A stretch of 64,000 nt of DNA from Rubrivivax sp. (GTDB lineage: Bacteria > Pseudomonadota > Gammaproteobacteria > Burkholderiales > Burkholderiaceae_C): NCBI GenBank assembly GCA_016789955.1, contig JAEUPB010000100.1:1-64000 (forward strand). The letters run 5' to 3'. A program made the translations under genes and the position numbers. Numbering within the stretch: position 1 is the first letter of the stretch; each line of letters begins with the position of its first letter. Shown piece after piece: positions 15,200-25,965 of the stretch. The notes beneath the pieces are model-generated. The model saw only the letters and a program-made list of their open reading frames with translations. It did no database searches and was not told the origin of the DNA.

Positions 15200-15877
15200 T
15201 CAGCCCGCCCGGCGATCTCGCTGTGAGCGCGCCTCGTGCAGCGCGTGCAATGAGATCTTGCGCACCTCGGCCTTGCTCTGCTCGATGTGGCTCTTCAGCA
15301 GCAGCTGTGCCTGGTCGGCGCGCCGCTGCACGATGGCGCGCAGGATCTTCGCGTGCTCGGCATAGGTGGCCTCGATGCGGTCGGGCCGCGTGAAGTCGAG
15401 CCGGCGCACGATGCGGATGCGGTCGGTGACCTCGCCGTGCACGCGGGCCATTTCGTGGTTGCCGGTGGCGCGCACCAGCGCGGCGTGGAAGTCCTCGTCG
15501 AGGCGGCCGACCTCGTGCGGGTCCGTGAGCCGCTCGGCCATGGGCACCAGCCACACCGACTTCAGCGCGTCGAGCGCCTCGGAGTCGTCGGGTCGGTGCA
15601 TCAGCCGCGCGACGCTCGCCGACTCGAGCACGATGCGCAGGTCGTAGAGCTGGTCGAGCCGCTCGAAGTCGATCGACCGCACGAACCAGCCGGTCTTGGC
15701 CTCGACGTCGATGAAGCCCTCGTTGCGCAAGCGCAGCAGCGCCTCGCGCACCGGCGTGCGGCTCACGCCCAGCCGCTGCCCGATCTCGGCTTCGGAGAGG
15801 CGATCGCCGGCGATCCAGCGGAAGTCGTGGAGCTCGCCCTTCAGCGCGGCGTAGACGGTGTCGGAGAGGCTGGCCAT
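15200..15877 (-). CDS. GntR-family transcriptional regulator (FCD subfamily)
   Basis: A 225-residue regulator. The winged-helix DNA-binding domain occupies about residues 5-70 ([25 protein letters not shown], then the wing [15 protein letters not shown]). An all-helical FCD ligand-binding domain follows, with the metal-binding pattern [21 protein letters not shown] and EHAKILRAI. It is the last gene of the eleven-gene oligourea cluster, 58 bases after the isochorismatase-like gene, so it probably controls the cluster in response to a pathway intermediate. A candidate operator (TTGGTATACAAG) lies upstream of the first gene at 25.8 kb. The effector is unknown. Confidence 0.92.
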
Positions 15878-15935
15878 GGGGGTGTGGAACCGGCGCGGAG
15901 GGCGATCATCGCCGACGCCATGGGTTCGAGTTGCC

Positions 15936-16616
15936 TCAGCTCTCTCCGATGGCGCCGAGCACGTCCGCCAGCGTCGCCGTCCAGCCGACGATGCCGCCTT
16001 GCGCGACGATCATCTCCAGCGTGGCGGCCTTGTAGGCCGGGAAGTAGCTCTCGGTGGCCTCTTCCACCAGCAGGCTGTCGTAGCCGCGGTCGTTGGCCTC
16101 GCGCATCGTGGTCTGCACGCAGACCTCGGTGGTGACGCCCGCGAACACGAGCTGCGTGACGCCGGCGGCCTCCAGCAGCGCCTGCATCGACGTGGCGTGG
16201 AAGGCGCCCTTGCCGGGCTTGTCGATCACCCACTCGCCGCTGCGCGGGGCCAGCGCCGGCACGATCTCGCTGCCCGGTTCGCCGCGCACCAGCAGCCGCC
16301 CCATGGGCCCCGGGTCGCCGATGCGGCGCGGCGGCGAGCCGCGCTCGCGCTTGGCCGGCGGGCAGTCCGACAGGTCGGGCGCATGCGACTCGCGGGTGTG
16401 CAGCACCGGCCAGCGCCGCTTGCGCCAGGCCTCCAGCAGTTGCCGCGACGGCTCGATCGCCGCCTGAAGCCGAGACACGTCGTTGCCCAGCGAGGCGCCG
16501 AAGCCGCCGGGCTCGATGAAGTCACGCTGCATGTCGATGATCACCAGCGCCGCCAGGCCGGGGCGCAGCGTGTAGGGGAAGGGGCGGGCGGGGATCTGCA
16601 GCATGGTGGAGGTCAT
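15936..16616 (-). CDS. Isochorismatase-like cysteine hydrolase, candidate triuret hydrolase
   Basis: A 226-residue cytoplasmic amidohydrolase of the isochorismatase-like superfamily. The catalytic triad is Asp28 (IIDMQRDF), Lys133 ([12 protein letters not shown]) and Cys166 ([18 protein letters not shown]). A cis-peptide-type Gln206 (AQGG) lies 40 residues after the Cys. It is a clear paralogue of the biuret hydrolase two genes upstream, with the same motif spacing but a divergent substrate segment (about residues 85-108, rich in Arg/Pro where the paralogue has [12 protein letters not shown]). In a described triuret pathway the triuret hydrolase TrtA is just such a BiuH relative encoded in the same cluster and forms carboxybiuret, the substrate of AtzEG. 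That role is my inference; a ureidoacrylate or second biuret amidohydrolase is the alternative. Confidence 0.72.
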
Positions 16617-16619
16617 CGA

Positions 16620-18167
16620 TCAATGGGCGTGGCCACCCATGTGGCGGCCGATGTCGTGCCGGTCGGCCCCGGCGGCAGCGCACTCGTGCACGACGCGGCC
16701 GCCGCTCATCACCACGATGCGGTCGGCCAGTGCGAGCAGCTCGTCGAGGTCCTCGCTGACCATCAGCACCGCTGCGCCGCGGTCGCGTGCGGCGGCCAGG
16801 CGCGCATGCACCTCGGCCACGGCGGTGAAGTCCAGGCCGAACACCGGGTTGCTGACCAGCAGCAGCTCGGCGTCGTCGGAGAGTTCGCGCGCCAGTACGG
16901 CGCGCTGCACGTTGCCGCCGGAGAGCGCGCGGATCGGCTCGCCCGGGCCGCGCGTCTTCACCCGGTACGTGGCCACGAGTTCGCGGGCTCGCCGTGTGAG
17001 CGCACCGGGCACGCGCCAGCCGCCGCGGGCGTAGGGCGGCGCGTCGAAGCTGCGCAGCCCGATGTTGTCGGCCACGCTCATCGCGCCCACGCAGGCGTTG
17101 CGCAGCGGCTCCTCGGGCAGGCCCCGCACGCGCAGGCGGCGGTTCTGGCCGCGCGTGGCGCGATACGCCTGCCCGGCCACGCGCACGTCGCCGCCGACGC
17201 GCTCGCGCTGGCCCGCCAGCGCTTCCATCAGCTCGCGCTGGCCGTTGCCCGAGACGCCCGCGATGCCCACGATCTCGCCGCGGCGCACCTCCAGGTCGAG
17301 GCCCGCCACGGCCGGTTCACCGCGGTCGCCGGTGACCTGCAGCCCGCGCACCGACAAGCACACGTCGCCGGGCGCGCCGCCCCGGGCGTTCGCGCGGTCG
17401 ACCGGCGCGTCGGTCGCGGCGGCCTGCGCAGCGTCCCCGCCGCCCACCATCATCGAGGCCAGCTCGGCCGCCGACGTGCCCGCCACCGCGCGGCTGCCGA
17501 CGTGGGCGCCGCGGCGCAGCACGGTCACGTCGTCGGCGAACTCGATCACCTCGCGGAACTTGTGCGTGATCATCACCACCGTGCACTCGCCCGAATGCGC
17601 GCGCTCCTTCAAGGCACCCAGCACCTCGTCGGCCTCCTGCGGCGTCAGCACCGAGGTCGGCTCGTCGAGGATCAGCAGGCGCGGGCGCAGGTACAGCTGC
17701 TTCAGGATCTCGAGCTTCTGCTTCTCGCCGGCGGAGAGCTGCATCGGCGTGGCGTCGAGCGGCAGCGCGAACGGGGCGCCCTGCATGAAGGCGTCGAGCT
17801 CGGCGCGGACCTTCGGCCAGTCGATGACCCACGGCAGCGCGCCCTTGGCGACGAGCAGATTCTCGGCCACCGTCATGCCCGGCACCACGGTGAAGTGCTG
17901 GTAGACCATGCCCAGGCCCAGGCTGCGGGCCACGGTGGGGCTGGAGATCGCCTGCTCGCGCCCGTCGATCAGCACCGAGCCGGTATCGGGCCGGTGGTAG
18001 CCCACCAGGCACTTGACCAGCGTGCTCTTGCCGGCGCCGTTCTCGCCGAGCAGCGCGTGCACCGTGCCGGCGCGCACGGTCATCGACACGCCCGAGAGCG
18101 CCGTGAAGCTGCCGAAGCGCTTGCCCAGCTCGTAGGTCTCCAGGTTCAGCGCGCCGGTGGCCGTCAT
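16620..18167 (-). CDS. BMP-type ABC transporter ATPase (two nucleotide-binding domains)
   Basis: A 515-residue duplicated ATPase of the YufO/RbsA-like kind that powers BMP-family importers. NBD1 has an intact Walker A (GENGAGKST), signature (LSAGEKQK) and Walker B ([13 protein letters not shown]). NBD2 has the usual weakened Walker A ([10 protein letters not shown]), signature [10 protein letters not shown] and [12 protein letters not shown]. The start at ATG 18167 overlaps the biuH TGA (ATGA), so it is coupled to it; the frame runs further upstream but through shadow sequence. It sits among the permease and hydrolase genes and should energise uptake of the cluster's substrate. Confidence 0.93.
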
Positions 18168-18841
18168 CTCAATCCCTCCAGCAGCGTGTCGACGGTCGCG
18201 GTGGCGCCGAACACGCCGCCCTGCATGTGCACCATGCGGATGGCGGCGTCGTGGTTGCCGCGGTCCGTGGCGCCGGTGCCGTCTTCCAGCAGCAGGCACT
18301 CGAAGCCGCGGTCGTTGGCCTCGCGCATCGTCGTGTGCACGCAGACGTCGGTGGTGATGCCGGCCAGCACCAGGTTGCGGATGCCGCGCGTGTGCAGCAG
18401 CAGCTCGAGGTCGGTTGCGCAGAAGCTGCCCTTGCCGGGCTTGTCGATGATGGGCTCGCCAGGATGCGGTGCCAGCTCGGGGATGATTTCCCAGCCCGGT
18501 TCGCCGCGAACCAGGATGCGGCCGCAAGGGCCGGGGTCGCCGATGCCCGCGCCGATGCGCTGCGAGCGCCAGCGCTTGTTGGCCGGCAGGTCCGAGAGGT
18601 CGGGCCGGTGGCCTTCGCGGGTGTGGATCACGTGGTAGCCGCGCTTGCGCATCGCCGTGAGCGCGCGGCGGATGGGCTCGATCGGCGCGCGGGTCAGCGC
18701 CAGGTCGTAGCCCATCGCGTCGACGTAGCCACCGATGCCGCAGAAGTCGGTCTGCATGTCGATGACGACGAGCGCGGTGTTCTGGGGGCTGAGCTGGCCG
18801 TCGTAGGGCCAGGGGTAGGGCGTGGCGACGATGTGGTGCAT
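18164..18841 (-). CDS. biuH: Biuret amidohydrolase
   Basis: A 225-residue isochorismatase-like cysteine hydrolase that should convert biuret to allophanate plus ammonia. The triad is Asp28 (VIDMQTDF), Lys134 ([16 protein letters not shown]) and Cys167 ([17 protein letters not shown]). Lys137 and Gln207 fit the substrate-binding positions known for BiuH, and the triad spacing (106 and 33 residues) equals the one I recall for the characterised rhizobial enzyme. The segment [19 protein letters not shown] and the [14 protein letters not shown] loop are also as in BiuH. It lies between the permease and ATPase genes of a dedicated importer, and its product feeds AtzF, encoded by the first gene of the same run. 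Confidence 0.88.
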
Positions 18842-18863
18842 GGCAGCGTGCGCGGGGTGTGGT

Positions 18864-19784
18864 CTAGCGGGTGACGCCGAGTTCCTGCGGCGCCCCGGCG
18901 AGGCTCTTGCGCGGCGAGCAGGTGGCCACGAGGATCGCCAGCGTCAGCGCGTAGGGCACGGCGTTGAACAGGTGGTATCCGAAGCCGATGCCCACCGACT
19001 GCAGCGCCGGCGCGATGGCCCCGGCGCCGCCGAACAGCAGCGCCGCGCCCAGGCAGGCCAGCGGCCGCCAGCGGGCGAAGATCACCAGCGCCACGGCGAT
19101 CAGGCCCTGGCCGCTGGACAGGCCCTCGTTCCAGCTTCCCGGGTAGTACAGCGACAGCGACGCACCGCCCAGCCCCGCGATGAAGCCACCGGCCGTCGTG
19201 GCTGCGATGCGGATGCCGTTCACCGAGTGGCCCAGCGCCCGCGCCGCGTCGGCCGAGTCGCCGGCCATGCGCAGCTTCAGGCCCCACCCGGTGTGGTGCA
19301 GGCCCCAGGCGATGAAAGCCGCCAGCAGCACGCCGATCGGGAAGAGCGCGTTGATCGACAGCGCCGCGGCCACCGCACCGGAGTCCGACCAGCCGCCCAG
19401 CGGAATGGCCGGGATCTGCGGCGCCTGCGGCTGGATCAGCGGCTTGCCGAGGAAGAACGCGAGGCCCGTGCCCAGCCCCATGATCGCGATGCCGGCCGCG
19501 ATGTCGTTGACGCGCGGCAGGCTGCACACGAGGCCGTGCACCAGCGCGATCAGTGCGCCGCTGGCGCCGGCGGCCAGCACGCCCACCCACCACAGCCCGG
19601 TGCCGTAGGCGGCGCCGAAACCGGCCATCGCCGAGAACACGAGCACGCCCTCGAGCCCGAGGTTGATGCGCCCGGCCTTCTCGGTGATGCACTCGCCGAG
19701 GCTGACGAACAGGAATGGCGTGCCGACGCGGATCGCGCCGCCGAGCACGGCGATCAGCACGTCGATCCACTGCTCGGCGGTCAT
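18864..19784 (-). CDS. BMP-type ABC transporter permease 2
   Basis: A 306-residue inner-membrane protein with 8-9 predicted helices of the BPD_transp_2 (YufQ-like) family. Marker segments are [25 protein letters not shown] near the N-terminus, where family members read GE..ER.G..N.G.EG, and the coupling-type [18 protein letters not shown] in the middle. It forms a heterodimer with the permease encoded immediately upstream. The gap to that gene is 24 bases and to biuH 22 bases, consistent with one transcript. Family substrates are nucleosides or purine-like compounds; here the context points to a urea-oligomer. Confidence 0.9.
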
Positions 19785-19808
19785 GCGGAGGCTCCGTGTG
19801 TCATGGGT

Positions 19809-20861
19809 TCAGGCCGCCGCCACCTGCGGCGACGGGCGCCACACCAGGTGCAGCCGTCCGCGCAGTGCCTCGCTGGCCAGCACCAGCACGAACGCGATGC
19901 CCATCAGCACCTGCACCGACGCATCCGGCAAGCCGAGCCGCCGCTGCAGCAGGCTGCCCGCGGCGAGAAAGCCGCCGAACAGGATGGCCACGGGGATGAT
20001 CGCCAGCGGCTGGTGCCGCGCGACGAAGCTGACGAGGATGCCGGTGTAGCCCAGCCCCACGATCAGCGAGGCGTTGGCGGCTGTGTGCACGGCGGTGACC
20101 TCGATGCCGCCGGCCAGGCCGGCCGCCGCGCCGCCGAGCGCGCACGCAGTGATCAGCAGCCGCGCGGCCGGCAGCCCGACGAGCCGGGCGGCGCGCAGGT
20201 TGCCGCCCACCACGCGCGTGGCGAAGCCGTGCGTGGATGCGGCCAGCCACAGCGCCGCCACGATGCACAGCACGATGCCGATCGGCAGCCCCCAATGCAC
20301 GTCCCAGGTGCCGACCGTGCCGATGCGCAGGCTTTCGGGCAGCGGCGCCGTGGAGGGTTTGTTCAGGCTCGCCGGGTCGCGCAGCGGCCCCTCGACGATG
20401 TGCTTGAAGAGCGCGATGGCCAGGTATCCGAGCAGCAGGCTGGAGATGGTCTCGTTGACGCCGCGCCACTGCCGCAGCGCACCGGCCAGCGCGATCCATG
20501 CCGCACCGGTCACCGCCGCGGCCAGCAGCAGGCAGACGGTGCCGGCGGTGCCACCGGGCAGCGGCAGCAGCGCCGGCAATGCCGCGGCGGCCAGGCCGCC
20601 CAGCACCAGCGCGCCTTCGCCGCCGATCACCACCAGGCCGGCCTGCGCCGGCAGGGCCACGGCCAGTGCCGTGAGCATCAGCGGCGCGGCCCGCTGCAGC
20701 GTGTTCTGCAGCGAGAACGAGTCGCCGAAGGCACCGCGGAACAGCAGTACCCAGGTCTCCACCGGGCTCACGCCCCCGAGCCAGACGAACAGGCCGAACA
20801 GCAGCAGCGCGCCGGCGAGGGCCGCCAGCGGCAGCAGCACGGCTTCGAGGGTGTCGCGCAT
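19809..20861 (-). CDS. BMP-type ABC transporter permease 1
   Basis: A 350-residue inner-membrane protein with about nine hydrophobic helices, family BPD_transp_2 (YufP-like). The family's AGLVVIGGEGALVLGG region and the coupling loop GFATRVVGGNLRAARLVGLPAAR are present, plus GGIEVTAVH and the C-terminal VALPVAILFGG-like helix (IIPVAILFGGFLAAGS). It partners the permease at 18.9-19.8 kb and the binding protein encoded 10 bases upstream. It is part of the oligourea cluster importer. Confidence 0.92.
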   Translation of the reverse strand: MRDTLEAVLLPLAALAGALLLFGLFVWLGGVSPVETWVLLFRGAFGDSFSLQNTLQRAAPLMLTALAVALPAQAGLVVIGGEGALVLGGLAAAALPALLPLPGGTAGTVCLLLAAAVTGAAWIALAGALRQWRGVNETISSLLLGYLAIALFKHIVEGPLRDPASLNKPSTAPLPESLRIGTVGTWDVHWGLPIGIVLCIVAALWLAASTHGFATRVVGGNLRAARLVGLPAARLLITACALGGAAAGLAGGIEVTAVHTAANASLIVGLGYTGILVSFVARHQPLAIIPVAILFGGFLAAGSLLQRRLGLPDASVQVLMGIAFVLVLASEALRGRLHLVWRPSPQVAAA

Positions 20862-20871
20862 CGCGCCGGCC

Positions 20872-21990
20872 TCAGACCTTGCCGATCACGCCTTCGACGA
20901 GGTAGTTCATCGCCTCGAGCTGCAGGTCGGTCTGCTTCAGCGTCGTGCCCTTGGGGATCACGACCTTGCCGGTGTTGTCCTTCAGCTCGCCGGCGAAGAT
21001 GTCGAAGGTGCCGGCCATCATCTTGGCGCGCACCGCCTCGGCGTTCTTGCGCGCGCCCTCGCTGACGGCGCTGCCGTACGGCGACGACTTGACGAAGCCG
21101 TCCTTCAGCCCGCCGCGCACGAAGTTCGGGTGCGGCTTGCCAGTGCGCGCCGCCTCGAGGATCTGCGTGTAGGCCGTGAGCCAGTTCCACTCGGCGCCGG
21201 TGAGGTAGGCTTGCGGCGCGAGCTTGGCCTGGCTGGCGTGGTAGCCGCAGACCATCTTGCCGCGCTTGGCGGCCGTCTCCACCACCACCTTCGGCCCGTC
21301 GACGTGCATCGTGAACACGTCGACGCCCTGGTCGGCGAGGCTGTTGGTGGCCTCGGCCTCCTTGACGGCCATCGACCAGTCGCCGGTGAAGATCACGGTG
21401 GTCGTGATCTTCGGGTCCACCGAGCGGGCGCCCATCGTGTAGGCGTTGATGTTGCGCAGCACCTGCGGTATCGGCTTGGCGGCCACGAAGCCGAGCTTCT
21501 TGCTCTTGCTCATGTGGCCGGCGACGACCCCGTTGAGGTACTGCGCCTCGTCGATGTAGCCGAAGAAGCTGCCGGTGTTGGCCGGGTGCTTGCCGGCCGT
21601 CCACAGGCCGCCGCAGTGGGAGAAGCGCACGGCGGGGTTCTTCGCCGCCACGGCGAGCATGTGCGGGTCGAAGTAGCCGAACGACGTGGGGAACAGCAGC
21701 GTCGCACCGTCCTGCGAGATCATGCCCTGCATGGTCTTCTGCACGGCCTGCGTCTCGGCGACGTTCTCCTCCTCGACGACCTTGACGCCGGCCACCTTCT
21801 TCAGCGCCGCGGCGGCCTCGGCCTGCGCCTGGTTGTAGCCGAAGTCGTCGCGCGGGCCCACGTAGATGATGCCCACGGTGATCGGCGCCTGCGCGCGGGC
21901 GGTGCTCCAGGCACCGGCCAGCGGCAGCGCGGCGCCGGCGGCCAGCACCTGGCGGCGGGAGAGGTCGAGTGGGCGGGAGGGGTGGTTCAT
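20872..21990 (-). CDS. BMP-family ABC transporter substrate-binding protein
   Basis: A 372-residue periplasmic protein. The N-terminus carries a twin-arginine-like signal ([25 protein letters not shown]), implying export of a folded protein. The mature part is a Bmp/PnrA-like periplasmic binding protein: [18 protein letters not shown], an [12 protein letters not shown] segment, [12 protein letters not shown] and [17 protein letters not shown] are typical. The start at ATG 21990 overlaps the atzH TGA (ATGA). Relatives bind nucleosides, and some bind small amide-rich compounds. In this cluster the ligand is plausibly biuret, triuret or a related product. Confidence 0.93.
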
Positions 21991-22430
21991 GTCGGCTCCT
22001 GGCGAACGTGGGACGGGACGGATGGAGGGGCGGGTACTGCAGGGGACAGGTCGATCAGCGAGACATGCGCGGCCACGACGCGCCAGCCCTGCGGGAAGCG
22101 CACCCAGGTCTGGCTCTGGCGGCCCAGGCGCGGGCTGCCCTCGCGGCGGAACTCGGTCATCGCGGTGGCGCAGTCGCGGCCGTGCGTGGTGATCACGGTG
22201 CGGTGCAGCGTGCGTGCGAGGCCGACGGGCGAGCGCGCGGTGCGGAAGGCGCGGATCTCGTCGATGCCGTAGAGGTCCTCGGCGGCGCCGTAGCGCACCG
22301 TGTGCGGGCTGTCCCAGAACAGTTCGTCGAGCACCTCGACGCGGTTGTTCACGAGCGCGTCCTCGTAGCGAGCGAACACGGCCGAAACCTCGGCGTGCAC
22401 GTCGGGCAGGTTGGTGTCTGCGGCGGCCAT
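21987..22430 (-). CDS. atzH: AtzH/HpxZ-like NTF2-fold protein (DUF3225)
   Basis: A 147-residue protein of the NTF2-like fold. Family features are [46 protein letters not shown] and the strand-rich C-terminal half ([39 protein letters not shown]). In the cyanuric acid pathway AtzH is a 1,3-dicarboxyurea deamidase giving allophanate; the related HpxZ works in oxalurate metabolism. The start ATG 22430 lies 11 bases after the atzE stop, and its end overlaps the binding-protein start. The neighbours atzE, atzG and atzF support the AtzH reading over HpxZ. Confidence 0.85.
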
Positions 22431-22441
22431 CGGTGTCGGTC

Positions 22442-23746
22442 TCACAGCTTCGCGACCGGTGCGTGCACCACACCGGCTTTCTCGAGCGCGCGGGCCAGCC
22501 GCAGCGCGCGGTCCTCCCGCCACGGCGCCGCGATCAGCTGCACGCCGATCGGCAGGTGCGGCGCGGCGGGGTCGCAGCCCCACACCGGCACCGTGACCAC
22601 CGGCAGCCCGATGCACGACACCGGCTGCGTCAGCAGGCCCAGGCTCGCGCGCATCGGCAGCTGGCGACCTTCGAGCTCGAGGTGCTCGGTGCCGATGGGC
22701 GGGGCCACGCACGGCGTGGCCGGCGCGAGGAACACGTCGACGCCTTCGAAGCTGCGCGCCACCTGACGCGCGAACCAGTGCCGCACGCGGTGTGCGCGAG
22801 CCACCCAGGCCGCGGGCAGCAGCGCGCCTGCGAGGAAGCGGTCGCGCGTGTGCGGGTCGAAGTCGTTCGGACGACGGCGCAGGTCGGGCAGGTGCAGCGC
22901 CGCGCCTTCGGAGTTGGTGATGACGAAGGCCGCCGCGCGGGCGCGGTCGACCTCGGGCCACTCGACGGTCTGCTGCGCGCCCAGCGCCTGGGCGACGCGG
23001 TCCACCGCGGCGCGCGCGGGCGGTTGCGCCATCGTGCGGAACCAACCGCCGAGCACCGCCACGCGCAGGCCGCGGGCGCCGTCGTCGAGCGTGGCCATCG
23101 CCGACTCCACCGGGCGCTGCGCGCAGGCCGGGTCGTCGGCGTCGGGGCCTTGCATCGCGTCGTAGGCCCGGGCCAGCAGCTCGACGCCGTCGGCGAACGG
23201 GCCGAGGTGGTCGAGGCTGGCCACGAACGGGTAGCTGCCGGTGCGCGGCAGCCGGCCGAACGTCGGCTTCAGGCCGTAGACGCCGCACAGCGAAGACGGC
23301 ACGCGGATCGAGCCGTTGGTGTCGGAGCCCAGCGCCAGCGGCACCTGCCCGGCGGCCACCGCCGCGGCCGAGCCACCGGAGGAGCCGCCGGCGACGCGGG
23401 TCGGATCGTGCGGGTTGCACGTCGGCCCCTCGTGGCTGTTCTCGGTGGTGAAGCCGTAGGCGTACTCATCCATGTTGAGCGCGCCGACGAGCACGGCCCC
23501 GGCGGCATCGAGCCGTTGCACGAGCACCGCGTCGGTCGTCTTCGGTTCGGCGTCGCGCTCGATGCGTGAGCCGGCCAGCGTCTGCAGCCCGGCCACGTCG
23601 AAGAGGTTCTTCACCGCGTAGGGCACGCCGTGCAGCAGCCCGTCGGTAGGGCGCGCCGCCAGCGCGCGCTCGGCCAGCACCGCGGTGAACGCGTTCACCG
23701 TGCCGTCGGTGGCGGTGATGCGGGCGAGGCTCTCGCGCACGTTCAC
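22442..23746 (-). CDS. atzE: AtzE-like amidase (1-carboxybiuret hydrolase large subunit)
   Basis: A 434-residue amidase-signature enzyme. The Ser-cisSer-Lys triad is visible: Lys46 ([11 protein letters not shown]), Ser122 ([10 protein letters not shown]) and nucleophile Ser146 ([13 protein letters not shown]). AtzE removes an amide from 1-carboxybiuret to give 1,3-dicarboxyurea and needs the small GatC-like partner AtzG, which is encoded immediately upstream. Translation probably starts at GTG 23746, overlapping the atzG stop (GTGA), giving [10 protein letters not shown]. Other amidases share the signature, but AtzG next door and AtzH behind it make the assignment strong. No maturation or transport signal is present, so it is cytoplasmic. 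Confidence 0.88.
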
Positions 23747-23937
23747 GAGCGGGGCTCCACGGGGCGGAACGTGCTGCCCGGCTCGTCGGCTGGGTCCAGC
23801 GGCAGCGACTCGATGCGCTCTGCCATCGCCGCCGCGAGCTGCAGGTTGCGCAGCACGCCAGGGCGCTGCTCGGGGGCGATCGGCAGCTCCAGCGCTGCCG
23901 CGGCGGCGTCGAGGTATTGATCCGGGTCCATCGGCAT
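23743..23937 (-). CDS. atzG: AtzG-like small subunit (DUF4089)
   Basis: A 64-residue protein with a helical N-terminal half (YLDAAAAALELPIAPEQRPGVLRNLQLAAAMAERI) and an extended tail ending FRPVEP. It matches AtzG, a small GatC-like protein that wraps around the AtzE amidase and stabilises it. The length is typical. The start is ATG 23937; a second in-frame ATG lies two codons later. It lies between atzF and atzE with a 4-base overlap to atzE, so stoichiometric synthesis is likely. Confidence 0.85.
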   Translation of the reverse strand: MPMDPDQYLDAAAAALELPIAPEQRPGVLRNLQLAAAMAERIESLPLDPADEPGSTFRPVEPRS

Positions 23938-23940
23938 CGT

Positions 23941-25728
23941 TCAGATCGAGGCGAGGTAGGCGCGCCAGCCACCGTGGTGGCTGATGTCCGGCGCGTCGGC
24001 CAGCGCGTGGCCTTCGCAGACGAATCCGCACACCCAGCTGCCGTCGGCCAGCTCGACACGGCCGATCGCCAGCGGCGCCGGGATGCCCGCCATGAACGAG
24101 CCCCAGTGCGCCAGCGGAAGCCACCACACCTCCAGCGCAATCGCCGTGCCGCCGGAAGGCACGCGTTGCAGACCGGGGCGGCGCGGCGGCCCGCCGGGCA
24201 GGGCGTGCAGGCGATACGCGGCCGACGTGGTGGTGGCCCGTTCGAGCACCGCGCCGCGCTCGGTGAGCTGGGCGTTCAGCGGCAGGCCCGACAGGTGCGC
24301 GCCGACCACGGCGATGCGCTGTCCGGGGGCCACTGCGGGGGTCGGCAGTGGCACGGAATCCGGGCCCGTGGCAGCGCTGGCCTGGGCCCCATGCGACGCC
24401 AGCCAGGCCTGCCCCCAGGGGGCCAGCGCGGCGTCGGCGTTGGCCGGGCCGATCGCGGTGACGCCGAAGGGCAAGCCGCCCGGCGTGCGCGTGGCCGGCA
24501 ACGCCAGGGCGCTCCAGCCGAGCAGGTTCACGAAGTTCGTGTACAGGCCGAGCTGCGCATTCGCGCCCACCGGATCGGCCTGCACCTGCGCATGCGTCGG
24601 ATGGGTCGGCACGCTGGGCACGACGATGAAGTCGACCTGCGCCATCAGGGCGTCGGCCTGCCGGCGCAGCGCCGTCAGGCGGTACTGGCCGCGAAAGGCA
24701 TCCGCGGCCGACAGGGCGTGGGCCCGCTCGATCACCCGGCGCACCGTGGCGTCGAGCGCTTCGGGCCGCTGGTCGATCAGCGGTTGCACCGCCAGCAGGC
24801 GCTCGGCGACCCAGGGTCCTTCGTACAGAAGCGACGCCACCTGGTGCAGCGGGGCCATGTCCAGCGGCACCAGCGTGGCCTGCTGCTCGAGCCCGGCCAG
24901 CGCCAGGCGCCAAGCGGCCGGGTAGTCCAGCGCCTCGTCCAGCGTCGGGGCCATCGGCACGCCGATGCGCGGGCGCTGCGGAAAGGCCGCCGCACCGGGC
25001 TGGAAGCGGCTGTAGGGGTCGTCGACGTCGTCGCCCTCGATGACCGCGAGCACCGCGGCCGCGTCCTCGGCGCTCGCGGCGAAGATCGAGACGCAGTCCA
25101 GGCTGCGGCACGCTGGCACGACCCCCGCGGTCGACACGCGGCCCGGGGTCGGCTTCAGTCCGACGATGCCGTTGAAGGCCGCCGGCACCCGCCCCGACCC
25201 GGCCGTGTCGGTGCCCAGCGCGAAGGCCACCTGGCCGAGGGCCACCGCCACCGCCGAGCCCGAACTCGAGCCGCCGCTCACCCGGCTCGCATCGAACACG
25301 CTGGACGGCACTCCGTAGGGCGACCGAGTGCCGACGAGGCCGGTGGCGAACTGGTCGAGGTTGGTCTTGCCGATCAGCACCGCACCGGCATCGAGCAGCC
25401 GACGCACCGCCGTGGCGCTCGCCGCGGCGACGTGCTCGAAAGCAGGGCAGGCCGCCGTGGTGGGCCAGCCTTCGACGTCGATGTTGTCCTTCACCGCGAA
25501 CGGCACGCCGTACAGCGGGTGGGCGGCGAGCAAGGCCTCGGGCGTGGCATGGCACCGCGCGAGCGCATCGAGTTCGCTGCAGCGGGTCGCCAGTTGCGCT
25601 TGGGTGGCCAAGCGGATCCAGACGCCCACCGGGCTGGTCTCACCGAGCCGCTTCAGCAATGGAGCGAGGTGCCCGAGCGGCGCCACTCCCGCGAAGGCGG
25701 CGGCCCGGCATGCGCCGATCGTCGGCAC
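23941..25728 (-). CDS. atzF: Allophanate hydrolase
   Basis: A 595-residue two-domain enzyme that converts allophanate to ammonia and CO2. The N-terminal amidase domain has Lys80 (VPFAVKDNIDV), Ser154 (VSGGSSSGSAV) and nucleophile Ser178 (GTDTAGSGRVPAAF). The C-terminal allophanate-hydrolase domain (about 455-595) ends with CGFVCEGHALADAPDIS and HHGGWRAYL, the His-rich motif used on the N-carboxycarbamate intermediate. I chose GTG 25728 because the family N-terminus (TIxAxRAAxxxG) begins there and it lies downstream of the operator-like site; an ATG at 25881 in frame would give 646 residues but would read through that site. It is the first gene of the cluster. Confidence 0.9.
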   Translation of the reverse strand: MPTIGACRAAAFAGVAPLGHLAPLLKRLGETSPVGVWIRLATQAQLATRCSELDALARCHATPEALLAAHPLYGVPFAVKDNIDVEGWPTTAACPAFEHVAAASATAVRRLLDAGAVLIGKTNLDQFATGLVGTRSPYGVPSSVFDASRVSGGSSSGSAVAVALGQVAFALGTDTAGSGRVPAAFNGIVGLKPTPGRVSTAGVVPACRSLDCVSIFAASAEDAAAVLAVIEGDDVDDPYSRFQPGAAAFPQRPRIGVPMAPTLDEALDYPAAWRLALAGLEQQATLVPLDMAPLHQVASLLYEGPWVAERLLAVQPLIDQRPEALDATVRRVIERAHALSAADAFRGQYRLTALRRQADALMAQVDFIVVPSVPTHPTHAQVQADPVGANAQLGLYTNFVNLLGWSALALPATRTPGGLPFGVTAIGPANADAALAPWGQAWLASHGAQASAATGPDSVPLPTPAVAPGQRIAVVGAHLSGLPLNAQLTERGAVLERATTTSAAYRLHALPGGPPRRPGLQRVPSGGTAIALEVWWLPLAHWGSFMAGIPAPLAIGRVELADGSWVCGFVCEGHALADAPDISHHGGWRAYLASI

Positions 25729-25798
25729 CGTGGCCGTTGTCGATGCTGCAGACGCGCCGGCAGAGGGTGGGATCGGGGGTGCCAAGTCCGTGCACTCG

Positions 25799-25810
25799 TT
25801 GGTATACAAG
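25799..25810. promoter_or_regulatory. Candidate GntR/FCD operator upstream of the oligourea cluster
   Basis: TTGGTATACAAG has a GTATAC core palindrome with flanking T/A symmetry and resembles the TTGTATACAA-type operators of FCD-subfamily GntR regulators. It lies about 70 bases before the chosen atzF start, in a locally AT-richer patch, and the only regulator gene in the run is a GntR/FCD protein. I found no second copy ahead of that regulator. This is inference from pattern and position. Confidence 0.45.
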
Positions 25811-25965
25811 CCGGAGTGCTTGCAGGAGCCGTGCCAGCCCCGGGCCGGCGCACCGGCCTGAGCGGGCGCCGCGGGTGTCATGCAACGGACGTGCAACGCC
25901 CGCAGCCGATCCTGTGCACATGGCGGGCCCGGCATCACGGCCGGCCATCGAAAGGAGACCTGTCG

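Follow-up and report, generated by a model that had tools for sequence, protein, structure and literature searches.

Eleven genes on the minus strand of a Rubrivivax sp. contig (JAEUPB010000100.1, assembly GCA_016789955.1; the window analyzed here is its first 64,000 nucleotides [nt]) very probably form a nitrogen-regulated operon for the uptake and complete mineralization of triuret and biuret. In open reading frame coordinates, the run occupies 15200..25810, extends from atzF to a gntR gene, and encodes AtzF, AtzG, AtzE, AtzH, an importer of the ATP-binding cassette (ABC) type with a BMP-type binding protein, two isochorismatase-like hydrolases, and a GntR/FCD regulator. An earlier reading of this DNA (hereinafter, the original prediction) had named these eleven minus-strand genes in this order and with tight spacing, and the coordinates and family scans bear it out. 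The assignment rests on which genes are present and how they are arranged, on family membership and specificity residues, and on the conservation of a promoter and a palindrome.

The two hydrolases carry the distinction between triuret and biuret. The product of 15936-16616 falls short of the cut-off of the BiuH equivalog NF050097 (242 versus 370 bits), and its nearest solved structure is that of Herbaspirillum TrtA (6xix); the nearest structures for 18164-18841 are those of Rhizobium biuret hydrolase. Residue positions distinguishing TrtA from BiuH are described in passages of PMC7948467. At these positions, 15936-16616 has all six TrtA-type residues (F35, N41, A134, E160, Y187, and I205), together with the catalytic Asp24, Lys129, and Cys162 (positions from the same passages), and 18164-18841 has the BiuH-type residue at six of six. 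For comparison, a species-genome collection was scanned for TrtA relatives at a loose threshold, and the best 80 of at least 573 stretches were used as TrtA loci. In these related loci, F/N/E/Y/I are invariant in 80/80 TrtA genes and Y/Y/D/T/V in 65/65 BiuH genes; position 134 is variable in both. Because it has all six TrtA residues, fails the BiuH cut-off, and is closest to TrtA, the gene originally described only as a second isochorismatase-like hydrolase is TrtA, a predicted triuret hydrolase; 18164-18841 is BiuH, a predicted biuret hydrolase.

According to passages of PMC7948467, the TrtA product carboxybiuret loses CO2 with a half-life of about 20 min and is also the compound on which AtzEG acts; the AtzEG to AtzH chemistry is described in passages of PMC6219798. 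The window holds two exits from carboxybiuret, namely, AtzEG followed by AtzH, and BiuH for biuret. Its AtzE-family amidase adjoins AtzG, the arrangement characteristic of the AtzEG family; the predicted activity of the pair is deamination of carboxybiuret. The window AtzH retains all eight pocket residues examined (Tyr22, Arg46, Arg63, Arg66, Arg73, Arg96, Gln106, and Gln108; residues from passages of PMC6219798, with the numbering of that paper taken as native + 3, as inferred from the cloning primer). The oligourea chemistry of the original prediction fits every gene, and this pocket and the six of six residues in each hydrolase make it more specific.

The presence of Arg66 in AtzH follows that of AtzE. 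Arg66 was found in 73 of 74 AtzH with AtzE in the locus (the window counted; the exception is L142) and in 1 of 11 AtzH without it, all 11 from TrtA loci. That single case, L026, sits at a contig end, where AtzE may be cut off; excluding it, the count is 0/10, with full 10-kb flanks in eight of these ten loci and short contigs in the other two (L047 and L078). Absence of AtzE was judged at the locus only, and the residue comparison did not include short copies where a locus had been re-fetched. Because dicarboxyurea has two carboxylates and carboxybiuret one, we infer carboxybiuret itself to be the substrate that AtzH forms without Arg66 decarboxylate. These AtzH-like genes may be the enzyme named TrtB; no description of the TrtB family was found in the literature searched.

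Another candidate for TrtB was dropped, namely, a gene that many relatives carry between permease 2 and biuH; its sequence resembles that of a formamidase-type nitrilase. This formamidase-like gene (e.g., L007 6489-7508) is present in 32 of the 80 TrtA loci and in 24 of the 50 full-length ones, in the inspected loci always in that position; the window lacks it and has no room for it. Elsewhere in the window genome, a urease alpha subunit gene was detected (C48:39791-40165, L087), so that urea released when allophanate or dicarboxyurea decays might still be metabolized.

The 50 TrtA loci of at least 20 kb encode BiuH in 48 cases, BMP in 49, AtzH in 32, AtzE in 28, AtzF in 25, and AtzD in 3, counts from which outer genes may be missing because they can fall beyond the fetched flanks. 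The link between AtzE and TrtA is also seen in a family sample of 349 genomes, the window's included, drawn regardless of TrtA: 79 genomes encode AtzE and 94 encode TrtA, with both in 70, AtzE only in 9, and TrtA only in 24 (odds ratio 80, p = 3e-42, relatedness uncorrected). Of the 80 AtzE genes in these genomes, 64 are on the same contig as TrtA, at a distance of no more than 18.3 kb in every case and no more than 12 kb in 63. Among the nine AtzE-only genomes, AtzE is linked to AtzF in seven, to AtzD in one, and to a gamma-glutamyltransferase (GGT) in one. Of five genomes sampled from the window genus, the window's own and G537 carry both AtzE and TrtA, and three have neither at the thresholds used. 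In the same-genus G537 (locus L195), the whole set is kept in this gene order with two additions: atzF is followed by an ATPase-like gene, and biuH is preceded by a formamidase-like one. The view that the gene set is striking or rare did not hold: the operon type is widespread among relatives, and close arrangements are already published. AtzE clusters without TrtA or BiuH were also observed (L181-L188, from G421, G443, G318, G369, G528, G566, G604, and G382); these contain a related GntR in 7/8, AtzF in 7/8, and another ABC ATPase in 8/8.

Among solved structures, the window BMP is closest to AtzT, which, according to passages of PMC6834077, sandwiches guanine between Tyr45 and Trp194 and binds it at about 110 nM. 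This affinity, and the report in passages of PMC7948467 that triuret can arise from urate oxidation, would suit an operon for purine or nucleobase uptake, in which guanine-like purines or products of uric acid enter through the importer, and oxidation products formed in the cell are cleared by the hydrolases. We consider this improbable. Of the AtzT guanine-site set (Tyr45, Trp194, Ser97, Glu165, Asn218, and Asn220), the window BMP keeps the first three but has Gln at 165, His at 218, and Asp at 220, so that two contacts to guanine, Glu165 and Asn218, are lost; it is classed as a BMP-type importer protein and not as a guanine binder. Across 66 TrtA-linked BMPs, His at position 218 and Asp at position 220 are found in 66/66; position 165 is occupied by Gln (47 proteins), Ser (11), or Thr (8) and never by Glu. 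Furthermore, none of the eleven genes matches a known purine-degradation enzyme, and, as counted above, BMP accompanies TrtA in 49/50 full-length loci. The substitutions are compatible with a nitrogen-rich, planar ligand that is not guanine, and we infer that triuret or biuret is what the window transporter imports. In Rubrivivax-type relatives (L007, L008, L011, L013, and others), trtA and gntR are separated by two more ABC ATPase matches, which probably belong to a second transporter; the window is without them.

The sigma-54 consensus is TGGCACN5TTGCA. Before the first gene, in a control region that the original prediction did not mention, the window contains GG-N10-GC in a TGGCAC-N5-TTGCA context, and this element is conserved in relatives. 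The 80 TrtA loci contain 42 sigma-54-like sites (GG and GC fixed) in 2.8 Mb of strand, of which 15, in 15 of 65 loci, lie at -300 to +200 of the start of a BMP or AtzF frame, a density 33-fold above that in the rest of the loci; eight other gene sets have at most two such sites each. Next to the promoter element lies a palindrome, TTGTATACCA, the only window site within two mismatches of TTGTATACAA. At one mismatch, TTGTATACAA has 17 sites in the 80 loci, with counts of 12 near BMP, 4 near AtzF, and 1 near permease 2, in which the same site can be counted for two gene sets; seven other gene sets have no such site nearby. The 108 loci and the window (109 sequences in total) contain 25 pairs of sigma-54 element and palindrome, each located at the first gene of a cluster of this kind; in 21 pairs, the two elements are separated by 7 to 11 nt. 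The nearest same-strand start is that of BMP, AtzF, or AtzE in 22/22 pairs with mapped genes; in L195 and L198 it is AtzF and BMP, and in the window it is atzF. The GntR/FCD protein Atu1419 binds ATGTATACAT, according to passages of PMC7797058; a TGTATACA-type palindrome sits at the window promoter and is a probable GntR/FCD operator.

This palindrome also bears on the atzF start, which the original prediction placed near 25810. The TTG there falls inside the conserved palindrome, and the frame is open upstream of 25785. In the three relatives compared, a start codon is present 8 or 9 codons further in, as residue 9 or 10 when counted along the earlier-annotated frame, so that the TTG at 25785 is most likely the true start.

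The predicted enzyme activities and transporter ligand, combined with the roles predicted for NtrC, the GntR protein, its inducer, and a single transcript, would make up the following route. The BMP/ABC transporter would import a planar oligourea, and TrtA would convert triuret to 1-carboxybiuret and one ammonia. In one branch, AtzEG would remove a second ammonia to yield 1,3-dicarboxyurea, which AtzH would decarboxylate to allophanate; in the other, carboxybiuret would spontaneously lose CO2, and BiuH would convert the resulting biuret, as well as imported biuret, to allophanate. AtzF would free the last nitrogen from allophanate as ammonia, so that all four triuret nitrogens would be recovered. 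Transcription would be driven by the sigma-54 promoter, so that nitrogen limitation (NtrC) should be required, and the GntR/FCD protein of the operon itself would probably block at the start-site palindrome until an inducer is present.

Several observations weigh against a dedicated triuret and biuret operon. First, an NCBI model labels the window AtzH “oxalurate catabolism protein HpxZ” (209 bits, cut-off 135), and the Klebsiella order hpxX, AtzE-family gene, hpxZ matches that of AtzG-E-H, as would be expected if these three genes were an oxalurate (HpxXYZ) module placed by chance inside a biuret/triuret operon. This appears very unlikely: the window AtzE groups with TrtA-linked AtzE, apart from the long-branch Klebsiella protein, and the eleven genes include AtzF, an allophanate sink, but no gamma-glutamyltransferase-like or allantoate gene. 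The HpxZ model itself cannot separate the two possibilities because the pADP-1 AtzH gets the same name. Second, at a genome completeness of 79.6%, AtzD or other genes may have escaped detection. The operon could also be a cyanuric-acid operon minus the ring-opener AtzD, given that AtzG-E-H-F are the pADP-1 cyanuric-acid enzymes and that an AtzD-like gene occurs in 6/80 TrtA loci. We assign this possibility a still smaller probability: no AtzD was detected in the operon or the genome searched by a search that caught 3/3 known carriers and 0/14 control genomes, TrtA would supply the carboxybiuret, and AtzD is present in only 3/50 full-length loci.

Third, in the wider order (300 genomes), TrtA is found on the same contig and no more than 20 kb away for 16 of 34 strong AtzE genes, and many of the remaining AtzE genes occur together with AtzF, so that AtzGEH also serves other routes. 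Fourth, Asp220 of the binding protein does not discriminate because two BMPs from loci without TrtA (L134 and L184) carry Glu165 and Asn218, yet have Asp220. Fifth, the sigma-54 pattern has three matches in the window versus 1.1 expected, and 9/100 shuffles reach three; the window site alone is thus insignificant, and conservation carries the claim. Finally, the one-mismatch palindrome is found in 4/20 loci with a close GntR and in 5/30 without (p = 1), and two-mismatch palindromes likewise show no GntR link, a comparison in which the AtzF starts of many AtzF-first operons lie beyond the fetched flanks. The five palindrome loci without a close GntR have a distant GntR match (26-29%), spotted post hoc. 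Co-occurrence across loci thus does not support GntR as the palindrome binder.

The features are collected in the table. Gaps within the run range from 3 to 58 nt: 3 nt at atzF/atzG and ATPase/trtA, 10 at BMP/permease, 11 at atzE/atzH, 22 at permease/biuH, 24 at permease/permease, and 58 at trtA/gntR. Three gene pairs overlap by 4 nt (atzG/atzE, atzH/BMP, and biuH/ATPase). This spacing suggests that the eleven genes form one transcript. The permeases score 103 and 87 bits against PF02653 (BPD_transp_2; cut-off 27). The importer ATPase was covered by the NCBIfam scan only and passed no equivalog cut-off. No intrinsic terminators or sigma-70 promoters above chance and no break in GC content at the operon were detected.

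Table. Genes and control elements of the putative triuret and biuret operon, listed in the direction of transcription with predicted functions
Feature	Position	Strand	Evidence and remarks
Sigma-54 (-24/-12) promoter element TGGCACGGCTCCTGCA	25821..25836	-	One mismatch versus TGGCACN5TTGCA
Palindrome TTGTATACCA, probable GntR/FCD operator	25800..25809	-	11 nt after the sigma-54 element
atzF, allophanate hydrolase	23941..25785	-	TIGR02713, 735 bits (cut-off 511); AH_C domain; probable TTG start
atzG, 1-carboxybiuret hydrolase small subunit	23743..23937	-	PF13318, 59 bits (cut-off 24)
atzE, 1-carboxybiuret hydrolase	22442..23746	-	PRK09201, 674 bits (cut-off 461); best solved relative 6c62; GTG start
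atzH, 1,3-dicarboxyurea decarboxylase	21987..22430	-	PF11533, 204 bits (cut-off 27)
BMP-type periplasmic binding protein, AtzT-like	20872..21990	-	PF02608, 135 bits (cut-off 24); best solved relative AtzT
ABC permease 1	19809..20861	-	PF02653
ABC permease 2	18864..19784	-	PF02653
biuH, biuret hydrolase	18164..18841	-	NF050097, 416 bits (cut-off 370); BiuH residues Y, Y, S, D, T, V
ABC ATPase of importer	16620..18167	-	Two-domain ABC ATPase matches
trtA, triuret hydrolase	15936..16616	-	Best solved relative TrtA 6xix, 284 bits
GntR/FCD regulator	15200..15877	-	PF00392 and PF07729 (FCD, 80 bits, cut-off 24)

The AtzE of the atrazine plasmid pADP-1 falls within a clade made up mainly of TrtA-linked genes. 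A quick tree (108 AtzE) places it in a 38-row clade with 28 TrtA-linked rows (support 99), and a careful tree (51 AtzE) places it in a 36-row clade with 26 TrtA-linked rows (100/100) and, inside this, in a 33-row clade (97/93). In the careful tree, it lies beside a chromosomal gene that is AtzD-linked (98/47); a TrtA-linked gene from Ramlibacter joins next (93/95), followed by two more TrtA-linked genes (90/88). The clade of the window AtzE is TrtA-linked in 20/20 rows of one tree and 20/21 of another. Tree rows were partly picked from TrtA loci, which favors the TrtA label, unlike the 349-genome family draw; L039, as too short, was not used, nor were short copies where a locus had been re-fetched. 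As the trees are unrooted and AtzF- and AtzD-linked rows lie within the clade, they can only suggest a direction of change.

Among the loci compared, the best match of pADP-1 AtzG, AtzE, and AtzH is the Ramlibacter monticola triuret locus L063 (63, 79, and 73%, respectively). The best matches of AtzF and AtzT are not in L063, and descent of the whole pADP-1 set from triuret operons was rejected. The chromosomal AtzD-E-H locus G368 is comparably close to pADP-1 AtzE (77%) and is its sister in the careful tree, so pADP-1 may have gained AtzD and GEH together. We consider evenly balanced the joint proposal that AtzG-E-H is at root a triuret module in this family, that this lineage was the source of the carboxybiuret step of pADP-1, with AtzD replacing TrtA, and that AtzH split into Arg66 forms serving AtzEG and Arg66-less forms, in TrtA operons that lack AtzEG, that decarboxylate carboxybiuret and are maybe TrtB. 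The AtzD-like ring-opening hydrolase genes in TrtA loci lie in the biuH/ATPase interval in four cases (L018, L019, L042, and L081), before the ATPase at a contig end in L029, and on the opposite strand in L078; through such genes, cyanuric acid and triuret could feed one carboxybiuret pool.

Triuret and biuret are impurities of urea fertilizer. The operon described here joins the triuret literature, in which carboxybiuret leaves via a decarboxylase or spontaneous decay, to the s-triazine literature, in which AtzG-E-H had no natural substrate. If the proposed functions are correct, AtzGEH would have a natural role, part of the atrazine pathway would have a testable origin, and the predicted nitrogen- and GntR-controlled promoter could be used to find such operons.

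Among known systems, the triuret pathway of Herbaspirillum sp. BH-1, as described in passages of PMC7948467, has TrtA, BiuH, and AtzF in common with the window. A contig of an ammonia oxidizer with trtA, trtB, biuH, atzF, and bmpA-nupABC (passages of PMC12625717 and PMC7948467) shares TrtA, BiuH, AtzF, and the BMP/Nup-type ABC transporter but has the putative carboxybiuret decarboxylase TrtB (PMC12625717) where the window instead has AtzG-E-H, predicted to deaminate carboxybiuret, beside BiuH. The abstract of PMC12625717 names “trtA, biuH, and atzH”, and passages of its text name trtB and atzF; a link between AtzH and TrtA is thus at least named there. The clusters of atzF/atzG-atzE-atzH, ABC transporter, and amidase genes in Variovorax, Rhodoferax, Leptothrix, Rhizobacter, and Methylibium (passages of PMC6219798) are probably of the same operon type as the window; the Leptothrix (L024) and Variovorax (L038, L060, L064, and L066) loci in our set encode AtzE, the BMP transporter, BiuH, and TrtA. 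That 2018 paper gave the gene order without a substrate, and “triuret” is absent from its main text. In the literature searched, excluding supplements, no statement places AtzG-E-H genes in triuret operons, and priority is uncertain. The pADP-1 cluster atzDGEHF plus atzRSTUVW has AtzG, AtzE, AtzH, AtzF, and a BMP transporter in common with the window and, like the promoter predicted here, is under sigma-54 control (passages of PMC6834077); it differs in having AtzD in place of TrtA and BiuH, a LysR regulator, and AtzT and AtzF proteins that are not close to those of the TrtA operons.

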